A stretch of DNA of 64,000 nucleotides from Streptomyces sclerotialus (GTDB lineage: Bacteria > Actinomycetota > Actinomycetes > Streptomycetales > Streptomycetaceae). Made by a program: the position numbers and the translations under genes. Shown here in pieces: positions 11,676 through 54,811 of this stretch (position 1 is its first letter; each line of letters begins with the position of its first letter). The stretch lies in contig NZ_JBFOHP010000002.1 in the NCBI RefSeq assembly GCF_040907265.1, forward strand, positions 2,752,501 through 2,816,500. Reading direction: 5' to 3'. The notes under the pieces are model-generated. The model was given only the letters and a program-made list of their open reading frames with translations. It had not been told where the DNA came from and ran no database searches.

Positions 11676-11711
11676 TCTCAGGCGTGTTCTCAGGCGTGTT
11701 CTCAGGCATGC
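11676..11711. repeat. Three 12-bp tandem repeats across the citE-like stop codon
   Basis: Units at 11676-11687 and 11688-11699 are identical (tctcaggcgtgt); the third, at 11700-11711, differs at two positions. The third contains the stop codon of the CitE-like gene (11702-11704) and creates the in-frame ATG at 11709 at the head of the PRTase frame. Confidence 0.85.
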
Positions 11712-12880
11712 GGCACGCTTGCCGCCAGCAGTTCCACGAAGCTGACGCCTTCGCGCGCGACCCCGAAGGCCTCGGCGCGCAGCAGCGTGCGCTCCGCCCA
11801 GGCGCGGTGCGGCTTCACCTCGTTCATCTTGTTCGTGTACGAGGAGCGCAGGACGCCGCCGCCGTGGGCTTCGGGGCGCAGGATGTCGGCCGCGTCGGTG
11901 AACTCCTCGTGGCTGACGACGGAGAGGGCGTGCACCGGGGCGACGTGCGAGGGGTGGATGCAGGTCTTCCCCTGGAGGCCGTTGGCCCGGTCCAGCTCGA
12001 TCTCGCGGAGCAGGCCGTCCATGGCGTGCTCGATGAGGGAGGTGCGCAGCTCCTCGGCGCGCCCGAGGAAGGGGCTCTGCCGCAGCTGCGGCTTGAACAT
12101 CCGCTCGTGCAGCCGGAAGTACTCCCAGACCGGCCCGGTGACGGTGAAGCCCGTGCCGTCGGCGCGGCCCAGGACGTTGACGACGTCGGCGATCACGGAG
12201 GCGACGATCCGTACGTCGTAGGCGGTCATGTCCGGCGCGCGGCGCAGGCCGTAAGCGGAGCAGAAGTCGGTGACGCCGAGGCGCAGCGCGAGGACGCGGT
12301 CCCGGTAGGCGTCCACGGTGCGGGCGATGCCCTGCAGCGTCTCCGTGCGGCTCTCCAGGTGGAGCAGCTCGGGGGACTCCAGGACCGGCATCGCGAACAG
12401 CCGCCGCCCGCAGGACGCTTCGGCGGCGGCGAGGGCCTCCAGGAAGGGGACGCCGCGCAGCGCGGTGAACTTCGGCAGCACGAAACCGGAGAGCAGCCGG
12501 ACGGCCGGACCCAGCCGCCGGGCCAGGTCGGGGATCTGGTCGGGGGTGCGGACCCGGACGAAGAGCAGGGGCAGCGGGGTCTCCGGCGCACGGAGCACGG
12601 TTTCGGCCAGCTCGTCGAACTGCCGTACGAGGTTGTCCTCACCGGCCGCCACGTCGCCGTCGCCGATGGAGTCCTCCAGGCACAGCACCATCGACACCAC
12701 GCCGCGCGCCGCCTGCTTGACCACGTCGGCGGCCAGCCGGGGCCTGGTCGCGGGCGAGTAGAGGGTGGCACCGAGCGCGACGGCGAGCAGCCGCTGCGGG
12801 GAGTCGGCGGTGAACTCCGCAGGCTCCTGGTGGAACAGCGTCGCGCGTACGTCGGGCGGCAGGTGTCCGAAATGACGCAT
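11702..12880 (-). CDS. CitE/HpcH-like lyase of the Ter module
   Basis: A 392-residue TIM-barrel protein of the HpcH/HpaI aldolase-citrate lyase beta superfamily. Visible signatures are [15 protein letters not shown] (metal and acid residues), [41 protein letters not shown] and [16 protein letters not shown]. The last is close to the CitE C-terminal signature. The reaction should be C-C bond formation or cleavage on a CoA ester or oxoacid. In Ter loci this lyase is thought to add or remove a carbon unit on the module's product. GGGGAG precedes the ATG. It is the first gene of the minus-strand operon and lies back-to-back with the long terD-type gene. Confidence 0.85.
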
Positions 12881-13108
12881 ACAACTCCCCGGGTGCGGGC
12901 GGGATTCGGCCACCCCTGTGGTTCTTTCCTCGGTTTCCGGTGTCCGGATCCGGCCGGTAATCGTACGTGTGGACCCCTGCGGAAAGTTCCCGCGCGGGTG
13001 AAAATCACGTGTCATGAGCCCGGCCGGCGGGTGCGCGCCGCCGCCGTTCCCGCGCGCCGGGGCGCCCCCGCGTTGTCCGGCACCCCGTTCAGCAGGCAGG
13101 ATGACGTC

Positions 13109-14215
13109 ATGACGCACGCCATGCAGAAGGGGTCGAACGTGCCCCTCGACGCCACTGCCGTACGGGCCGTCCTGCGCTGGACGCCGGGCACGGGAGTGCC
13201 TGACGTGGACGCCTCGGCGCTGCTGCTGGGCGCCGAAGGGCGGGTGCGGTCGGACGCGGACTTCGTGTTCTACAACCAGCCCCGGCACCCCAGCGGCTCG
13301 GTGCGTCACCTGCCCAAGAAGCGGCTGCCCGACGCGCTGACCGACACCGTCGAGGCGGACCTCGCCGCGCTGGACCCGTCGGTGGACCGGGTGGTGGTGG
13401 CCGCTTCCTCGGACGGCGGCCCGTTCGGCAACGTGACGGACCTGCGGGTGGAGCTGTACGACGCGGCGCAAGGAGACGGCGGGCCACTGGCGGTGTTCGA
13501 GGTGGAGCCGGAGACCGGCGACGAGACGGCGCTGATCTGCGGCGAGCTGTACCGGCGCGCCGACGCCTGGAAGTTCCGGGCGCTGGGCCAGGGCTACGAC
13601 AGCGGACTGGTCGGGCTGGCGACGGAGTTCGGCATCTCGGTGGACGAGAGCGAGGGCGAGGGCACCGGGGACACCGGGGACGGGACCGGTGCCGCGCGGA
13701 CGGCCGACGGGGCGACGGCCGCGCCCGGGGCCGTGCCGGGGTCGGAGGACGTGACCCGTGCCGTGTCCGAGCCGCCGGCCGCCGTGCCGGCGGCCGGCTC
13801 CGAGGACGTCACCCAGGCCGTGCCCGAGCCGGTGCCCTTCCCCGAACCGGCCGCCGCCGAGTCCACCGGGGCCGCCGCCGCTGCCTTCCCGGCGCCGCAG
13901 CCGCCCACCGGCGCCCCGGCGGGCGGCTACGGCTACCCGGAGAACGTGCCCCCGCCGCCCGCGATGCCGCCGGGCCCGCCCGCGTACGGCCATCCCGGGC
14001 CGCCGCCCGAGCAGCCCCCGGGCCCCGCGTACGGCTATCCGGGCCCGCGGCAGGAGCCGGGCCAGGCGCAGCCCGCCTACGGCTATCCGCAGCCGCAGAC
14101 CGCGGCCACCGGCTACGGCTACCCGCCGCCCGCGCCCGGGCAGCCGGCCGGGCCGGTGCCGGAGAACGGGCCGCTGGTGCTGCCGCCGCAGGGCCCGCAG
14201 TTCCAGCGGCGCTGA
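13109..14215 (+). CDS. TerD-domain protein with Gly-Tyr-Pro-rich tail
   Basis: A 368-residue protein. Residues 1-175 form a TerD domain: [38 protein letters not shown] and [27 protein letters not shown]. The Ca-binding Asp pattern is partly conserved. The rest is low complexity: an Asp/Glu/Ala/Val section with [16 protein letters not shown] repeats, then many GYGYP, AYGYP and PPPP units to the end, likely disordered and possibly a partner-binding tail. It is transcribed away from the citE-like operon and has its own promoter in the 228-bp gap. TerD proteins bind calcium and act in tellurite and envelope stress; the role of the tail is unknown. Confidence 0.85.
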
Positions 14216-14230
14216 GCCGCCCCGGGCGGC
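14216..14230. terminator. Short GC hairpin between convergent genes
   Basis: GCCGCCC and GGGCGGC flank one C directly after the stop codon of the TerD-tail gene and before the end of the opposing TerD-type gene. The loop is tight and there is no T run, so the call is weak. Confidence 0.35.
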
Positions 14231-14288
14231 GGCTGCGGGGCGGGAACGGCTTCGAGGGCGGGCGCCGCGCACCGCGGGCGCCCGGTCC

Positions 14289-53911: not shown

Positions 53912-53922
53912 CCCGGAAAGGC

Positions 53923-53956
53923 GGAGGGCCGCACCCCCAACGGGATGCGGCCCTCC
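53923..53956 (-). terminator. Hairpin behind the Ohr gene
   Basis: Perfect 11-bp arms GGAGGGCCGCA and TGCGGCCCTCC around a 12-nt loop. The right arm sequence GGATGCGGCCCTCC is repeated at 53984-53997 nearer the stop codon. Confidence 0.6.
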
Positions 53957-54012
53957 AGGCCGGGCAGGCGGCACCCCGCGATCGGATGCGGCCCTCCGGG
54001 GCAAGCGCTGTG

Positions 54013-54441
54013 TCAGGCGACGGTCAGGGTGACCTCGATGTTGCCGCGGGTGGCATTGGAGTACGGGCACACCTGGTGCGCCTTCTCCACCAGCGCCTTG
54101 GCGGTGTCCGCGTCGACGTTCGGGATCGAGGCCGAGATCTCGACCTTGAGGCCGAAGCCGCCGGCCGGGGTCTTGCCGATGCCGACCTTGGCGGTCACCT
54201 GCGAGCCGGACACGTCCGCCTTCTCCTGACGCGCCACGACGCTCAGCGCGCCCTGGAAGCAGGCGCTGTATCCGGCGGCGAAGAGCTGCTCGGGGTTGGT
54301 GCCGGCGCCGCTGCCGCCCTGCTCCTTGGGCGGGTTGACGACGACGTCGAGCTTGCCGTCGTCGGAGGCGACGCGGCCGTCACGGCCGTTCTCCGCCGTG
54401 GCGACAGCGGTGTAGACGACGTCGACGGGCTGGATGGACAT
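54013..54441 (-). CDS. ohr: Organic hydroperoxide resistance protein (Ohr)
   Basis: A 142-residue OsmC/Ohr thiol peroxidase. The two redox Cys lie in AAGYSACFQGAL and HQVCPYSNATRGNIEV, the Ohr (not OsmC) signature. Arg and Glu that shape the pocket are in the early region ENGRDGRV and TNPEQLF. It reduces organic peroxides using lipoylated proteins. AGAGGAA precedes the ATG; the longer frame upstream is not credible. Ohr genes are often controlled by a MarR-type OhrR; the MarR gene at 55908 is not adjacent. Confidence 0.93.
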   Translation of the reverse strand: MSIQPVDVVYTAVATAENGRDGRVASDDGKLDVVVNPPKEQGGSGAGTNPEQLFAAGYSACFQGALSVVARQEKADVSGSQVTAKVGIGKTPAGGFGLKVEISASIPNVDADTAKALVEKAHQVCPYSNATRGNIEVTLTVA

Positions 54442-54657
54442 ACGGATTCCTCTCGTACGTACGCCGCGACTCGCGCCCACGATCGCGACGGCTTGCCACG
54501 AGCCTAGCGGGCGCCCGCAAGAGCCTCACCAGCAAGGGGGCTTGACGAACACCCCGGCCGCCGGTACGACGCGGCCACGGTACGGCCCCGCCGCGCGACC
54601 TGGCCACGGTACGACCCTGCCGGCACACCCCGGCCGCGGTCCGGCTCGGACGGACGG

Positions 54658-54811
54658 CCTCGGGCGGGCAGGCGGGTGGACTCAGACGGGCAGGCGGACG
54701 GCCTCGGGCGGACAGGCTGGTGGTCTCAGGCGGGCAGACGGCCGGCCTCAGGCGAGCGGGCTTGCGGACTCAGGCGGACAGGCTGGTGGACTCAGGCGGG
54801 CAGGCTGACGA
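54658..54811. repeat. Seven 22-bp tandem repeats spanning the quinone-reductase-like stop
   Basis: Units start at 54658, 54680, 54702, 54724, 54746, 54768 and 54790, all 22 bp, of the type actcaggcgggcaggctggtgg. The last holds the stop codon (54792-54794) and final codons of the oxidoreductase gene. The rest of this 350-bp gap has no gene. Confidence 0.9.

Follow-up and report, generated by a model that had tools for sequence, protein, structure and literature searches.

The kind of element considered here, an intergenic tandem array that widens the gap of a gene pair, is already known from Mycobacterium tuberculosis, where tandem repeats are described as having expanded the rnc-fpg1 gap, short in relatives, to about 300 bp (PMC2734929). 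The arrays analyzed in this work lie at the 3' ends of genes, among them those of the rbs operon, in a 64,000-nucleotide stretch of the Streptomyces sclerotialus genome (8.28 Mb in two contigs), hereafter the window (G000:C2:2752501-2816500, G000 being the window's genome). They consist of head-to-tail units of roughly 10-60 bp, that is, they are minisatellites, or variable-number tandem repeats (VNTR). As in the rnc-fpg1 minisatellite described in that source, repeats beginning near a stop codon widen a gene gap and vary in copy number; unlike in that description, the gene's last codons and stop are part of the unit at both rbsB and rbsC, and many unrelated arrays are found at gene ends genome-wide. 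MIRU elements (PMC12548453, PMC2734929) likewise occupy the junctions of neighbouring genes, but they are presented in these sources as one dispersed, apparently mobile family, which inserts at start codons with a spacing of -4 nt, whereas the present arrays have their own local units. The tandem repeats of Borgs, as characterized in PMC9879509, resemble the present ones in being local, fast-evolving and independently arising, with genic units divisible by three and intergenic units mostly not; Borg units are, however, perfect and A-rich, whereas ours are GC-rich, degenerate and located on a bacterial chromosome. In a study of S. coelicolor satellites (PMC6749651), a table of satellite-rich bacteria includes a Streptomyces (38; 4.20 per Mb); other detection thresholds were used there, and the main text of that article does not contain the term "stop codon". 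Our non-exhaustive literature search met no work on stop-codon arrays in Streptomyces.

Very probably, the arrays are ordinary minisatellites produced by tandem duplication and filtered by selection, i.e., the outcome of slippage plus tolerance, with slippage as the presumable molecular event. Their abundance and placement were assessed in three 400-kb blocks of G000 (1.2 Mb, about 15% of the genome, 933 genes) and in sequence from three other genomes of the genus, G086 (320 kb), G036 (400 kb) and G005 (400 kb), with one genome per species. Genes were called with our own periodic Markov model, and arrays were detected with Tandem Repeats Finder (TRF), the main set having a score of at least 70 and a period of at least 6, while some tests were performed at a score of 60. 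At the former threshold G000 yielded 214 arrays, as compared with 6 in a single randomisation of these blocks that shuffled the codons within genes and resampled the gaps from an order-2 Markov model. TRF also detected all the arrays named in the first-pass annotation of the window, whose view of them as a recurrent pattern of the genome was borne out. Of the 214 arrays, 22 crossed just a stop, 1 just a start and 2 one of each; 4 were situated at the edge of a stop, 93 in gaps and 92 within genes. Pooling the four genomes gave 396 arrays, of which 182 were inside genes and 156 in gaps, and 51 crossed a stop, 2 a start and 5 both. Arrays that begin within a gene's final 25 nt and cross its stop numbered 24, 7, 12 and 4 in G000, G086, G036 and G005, respectively, the mirror counts at starts being 0, 0, 1 and 0; the bias for stops over starts thus recurs in the three other genomes, in line with the comparison that the first-pass annotation had proposed. 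Outside the window, two dense clusters of arrays with mixed periods were observed in G000 (C2, about 2836200-2845200 and 5909900-5912100), each with 9 arrays not wholly within called genes; the region 5909900-5912100 may represent uncalled genes.

The same annotation had described the arrays as centred on stop codons, a wording that the position counts do not sustain. Since arrays lengthen the gaps they occupy, every array was collapsed to one unit and counted at its beginning; a flat coverage profile obtained after stops in co-directional gaps was rejected as biased, the arrays having lengthened their own gaps. In convergent gaps (606 stops in the four genomes) straddling arrays (21 arrays, 1.63/kb) displayed no significant peak relative to the first 150 nt (50 arrays, 1.28/kb; ratio 1.27, p 0.34), the rate at 0-25 nt after the stop being 1.46/kb. 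In co-directional gaps (1168 stops) the rate was 1.21/kb for straddling arrays, 1.19/kb at 0-25 nt, 0.62/kb at 25-50 nt and 0.31/kb at 50-150 nt. Arrays were therefore about as frequent across the stop as in the next 25 nt, the ratio being 1.11 in convergent (p 0.87) and 1.01 in co-directional gaps (p 1). A logistic regression on collapsed gaps, adjusted for GC, type of gap and proximity to the following start and with 50-300 nt as the reference, gave for the four genomes relative rates of 2.80 (confidence interval 1.88-4.17) for straddling arrays, 2.51 (1.66-3.79) for 0-25 nt and 1.93 (1.21-3.09) for 25-50 nt; for G000 alone these were 2.47 (1.44-4.24), 1.69 (0.92-3.11) and 1.74 (0.92-3.29). 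An excess at stops over intergenic positions of equal GC, which the first-pass annotation had made its test, was thus found with respect to farther positions (50-300 nt) but was not significant against the first 150 nt of convergent gaps. The array rate is graded towards the 3' end, and these numbers resolve no separate peak at the stop codon. In all blocks examined GC was observed to peak in the first 25 nt past stops (0.769) and to drop to 0.707 at 50-150 nt.

For a profile of ordinary mutations, 78 stop sides (49 co-directional, 29 convergent) were taken from junctions that lack arrays and are shared by G000 and G086; the bin from -150 to -100 was left unused, being taken as inflated by gaps at alignment starts. 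At 0-25, 25-50, 50-100 and 100-200 nt after the stop, all indels occurred at 30.8, 12.7, 13.4 and 8.2 per kb on co-directional sides and at 28.0, 20.8, 18.8 and 4.0 per kb on convergent ones. Substitutions were also highest in the first 25 nt, falling from 25.6% to 13-15% (co-directional) and from 39.4% to 30-32% (convergent). The first 25 nt past the stop are, therefore, the least constrained stretch of the junctions examined, and the arrays track it; because ordinary indels and substitutions show a similar gradient, tolerance can account for that of the arrays. The reading frame gives a complementary picture, as the unit length is divisible by three in 179 of the 182 arrays inside genes vs 19 of the 51 across stops (four genomes), which supports a general duplication process filtered by selection. 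The suggestion of the first-pass annotation that slippage is tolerated at gene ends is supported by both the mutational gradient and this frame filter.

In the mechanism we propose, tandem duplication by replication slippage or misalignment would make the arrays, and selection would then filter them. A duplication spanning the last codons and the stop would spare the protein because the first copy still terminates the reading frame, and the extra copies would become 3' untranslated sequence; such duplications should survive as would any insertion directly after a gene. Within genes, hardly any units but those divisible by three survive. If the stop is overlapped by the following gene, as in the pairs rbsR/rbsA and rbsA/rbsC, growth just upstream would have to stay in frame and would build a repetitive protein tail.

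The following features of the window illustrate these situations (families from Pfam; the rbs names were assigned by us and by the first-pass annotation):
11675..11707, minus strand: array of 12 bp x2.8 (TRF, translation, Pfam) with the stop of a C-C bond lyase gene (11702-11704)
31820..31878, no strand assigned: array of 18 bp x3.3 (TRF) in a convergent gap, 16 nt past the aldo/keto reductase stop
31895-32911, minus strand: aldo/keto reductase gene
47203..48153, minus strand: rbsK, PfkB-family kinase (Pfam match on the longer open reading frame, ORF, 47203-48192; start by the gene caller)
48203..48462, minus strand: array of 23 bp x11.3 (TRF, translation), spanning the rbsB stop and filling most of the rbsB-rbsK gap
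48444..49388, minus strand: rbsB, sugar-binding protein (Pfam; gene caller start at 49337)
49400..49446, minus strand: array of 15 bp x3.1 (TRF), spanning the rbsC stop (49436-49438)
49436..50443, minus strand: rbsC, permease (Pfam), 11-nt overlap with rbsA
50433..52307, minus strand: rbsA, sugar ABC transporter ATPase (Pfam), 4-nt overlap with rbsR
about 50511..50668, minus strand: in-frame pentapeptide tail of RbsA made of 15-bp repeats, a 45-bp period being also seen (TRF, translation)
52304..53602, minus strand: rbsR, LacI-family regulator (Pfam)
52307..52617, minus strand: C-terminal tail of RbsR, residues 330-432, largely 18-bp (hexapeptide) blocks (TRF, translation)
54655..54807, minus strand: array of 22 bp x7 (TRF, translation, Pfam), spanning the dehydrogenase stop (54792-54794)
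54792..55811, minus strand: zinc-binding dehydrogenase gene with its stop inside the 22-bp array (Pfam match on the longer ORF 54792-55856; start by the gene caller)

The four arrays with units of 12, 15, 22 and 23 bp each include a stop, as the first-pass annotation had stated. The 12-bp one equally codes for the N-terminus (first codons) of the next, stiP-like/PRTase gene and is, consequently, a stop/start junction repeat; a near-identical junction array is present in G086, and with a TRF score of 66 the array of G000 is outside the 214-array set. The 18-bp array next to the aldo/keto reductase was correctly noticed, although its distance from the stop is 16 nt rather than the reported 20. 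At rbsB and rbsC the unit comprises the gene's own last codons, the stop and the following bases. The in-frame repeats described for RbsA and RbsR proved real as well: the RbsA tail ends 75-83 nt upstream of the rbsA stop, and in RbsR the 18-bp blocks (52317-52385, 52430-52482 and 52511-52617) make up most of residues 330-432. Within the operon, ordered rbsR, rbsA, rbsC, rbsB, rbsK on the minus strand, four successive genes thus have arrays in or at their 3' ends. Apart from these, an 18/54-bp array of about 7 copies was observed at 46179-46302 inside a plus-strand gene (45582-47057), where it corresponds to about residues 200-240, within a carbon-nitrogen hydrolase domain match (residues 3-274). 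Rfam at the gathering threshold returned one tRNA and nothing else in the window.

The arrays differ between sister genomes. In the nearest relatives, G086 and G263, found by searching 392 genomes, the matching gene ends have fewer copies, no array or different arrays. The 23-bp unit of rbsB is present in 11.3 copies in G000 and 4.3 in G086 (TRF) and in about 2 imperfect copies in G263 (by eye); neither G086 nor G263 has the rbsC array or the RbsA tail array, and the RbsR tail contains different short repeats at the same place in both of them. Past the dehydrogenase stop, G086 has a different 30-bp array at about 10 nt and G263 a different 50-bp array at about 120 nt. Among the 24 other rbsB orthologues listed, a repeat of any sort near the 3' end was found in 7, the 23-bp period being seen in G086 only. 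The rbsB-rbsK gap is 290 nt long in G000, 131 nt in G086 and 91 nt in G263; of the same 24 orthologues, 6 show an 8-nt overlap with the next gene, the gap measures 13-137 nt in 15 and 293 and 428 nt in two more, and one is without a called next gene on its locus. The idea that array growth separated an overlapping rbsB-rbsK pair was dropped, as 6 of the 24 overlap but 15 have gaps of 13-137 nt.

Gene overlaps upstream in the operon are largely retained, while tail lengths vary: of 20 genomes in which rbsR was called, 16 have the 4-nt rbsR/rbsA overlap, and 19 of 21 have the 11-nt rbsA/rbsC overlap, G000 included in both cases. A more general idea, that overlapping gene pairs trap arrays and push them into the coding tail, was rejected, the differences having the expected direction without being significant (tail arrays in 6/186 overlapping co-directional genes vs 21/1087 with a gap of >30 nt at score 70, p 0.27; 10/186 vs 35/1087 at score 60, p 0.14). 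A separate observation concerns operon architecture: 15 of 20 relatives have, as their rbsC match, a single ORF of about 630-656 aa with no separate rbsB called (e.g., L011:3931-5886 and L009:4448-6403), and two such ORFs, when checked, consisted of a permease domain followed by a sugar-binding domain; in G000 rbsC and rbsB are separate.

As for the repair background, MutS (MutS_V, PF00488) was not found in G000 by a search that was positive in 11 of 14 control genomes, and NucS (PF01939) is present. NucS-based repair is described as leaving short indels uncorrected (PMC8228993), and the loss of NucS in S. ambofaciens is reported to have barely altered the indel rate (PMC11109965). If these data on short indels extend to duplications of 12-23 bp, poor indel repair may be one cause of the abundance of arrays.

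Several observations fit less well with tolerance as a sufficient explanation. Arrays are scarce just before co-directional starts (0.25/kb at 0-25 nt, rising to 0.89/kb at 150-250 nt), whereas all indels show no such scarcity (12.4/kb at 0-25 nt and 8.4-12.4/kb farther), so that the parallel between arrays and ordinary indels is weaker on the start side; indels of at least 8 bp alone do dip near these starts (2, 2, 7 and 5 events). The indel control itself is based on the 78 stop sides mentioned above. Arrays of the gap class are intermediate with respect to frame, 88 of 156 having units divisible by three, probably because some of them sit in uncalled genes. In the regression no class has a higher point estimate than the stop-crossing one (2.80 vs 2.51 at 0-25 nt), and in co-directional gaps straddling arrays are 3.9-fold more frequent than those at 50-150 nt (p 1e-5); a small additional effect at the stop is thus possible. 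Among 185 junctions conserved between G000 and G086, arrays at a score of 60 were found at 27 in the former, 22 in the latter and 8 in both, as compared with about 3.5 expected without correction for gap length; at 4 of these 8 junctions the units are unrelated (unit-match scores <0.6 both ways). We draw no inference of hotspots from this number, since gap length was uncontrolled. Finally, array-bearing 3' ends cluster: 18 adjacent co-directional pairs were counted vs 10.1 expected (p 0.0085; stratified by gap length, score 60), the rbs operon being one such cluster. Uniform tolerance does not predict clustering, the source of which could be regional differences in constraint or in mutation rate.

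The last observation is also what a process targeted to 3' ends would lead one to expect, namely one in which tandem duplication is made more frequent there by transcription termination, RNA polymerase pausing, R-loops or RNase action, as the first-pass annotation had put forward in part. The excess graded towards the stop at equal modelled GC (2.80, 2.51 and 1.93 for straddling, 0-25 and 25-50 nt) agrees with such a process too; a peak over the adjacent 3' sequence and extra RNA structure, by contrast, were not found. Ordinary indels and substitutions have a similar gradient after the stop, and 182 of the 396 arrays are within genes, where they follow the frame rule. Folding of the 80 nt after stops gave a mean z of -1.35 (median -1.50) for 56 array-bearing regions and of -1.62 (median -1.17) for 120 array-free ones sampled from 489, with no difference between them (Mann-Whitney p 0.91). 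A link to terminators was accordingly rejected, and we regard a targeted process, which the data do not require, as unlikely. Similarly improbable, in our estimation, is a wider version of it, in which, beyond tolerance, the ending of transcription or the release of ribosomes locally raises duplication in MutS-less, high-GC actinobacteria, so that gene ends would be mutational hotspots, with arrays arising and disappearing there time and again and unrelated ones taking their place.

The run of four successive array-bearing rbs genes and the rbsB-rbsK gap of 290 nt, compared with 131 and 91 nt in the two relatives and with an 8-nt overlap in 6 of the 24 others listed, might instead speak for selected regulatory elements that set the product ratio of neighbours (e.g., rbsB:rbsK) via RNA stability or translational uncoupling. 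The arrays are not conserved, however: those of rbsA and rbsC are missing and the rbsR ones different in G086 and G263, and any 3' repeat is seen in just the 7 of 24 rbsB orthologues noted above, with the 23-bp period in G086 alone; we therefore give a regulatory role very little credence. The location of some arrays at stop/start junctions recalls the insertion there of MIRU-like repeats, dispersed and mobile, but the units are local: near-matches elsewhere in the 1.2 Mb numbered 0 for the 12-bp, 22-bp, 23-bp and 18-bp units, 1 for the 15-bp unit of rbsC and 4 for that of rbsA. Moreover, among the 214 arrays there are just 13 alike pairs (E 1e-6), 8 of them confined to two neighbourhoods that each span at most about 2 kb, and the rbsB and rbsC units are built from the gene's own ends. 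The probability that the arrays are mobile insertions is, in our view, close to nil.

Read as minisatellites shaped by duplication and selection, the arrays provide a measured distribution of such repeats in a high-GC actinobacterium: scarce at starts, in-frame in genes, free of this restriction at 3' ends and variable between sister species. This distribution is a caution against inferring function from gene-end repeats or, as in RbsR and RbsA, from repetitive C-terminal tails. At rbsB-rbsK, array growth widened an operon gap to 290 nt, as compared with 91-131 nt in the two nearest relatives found.

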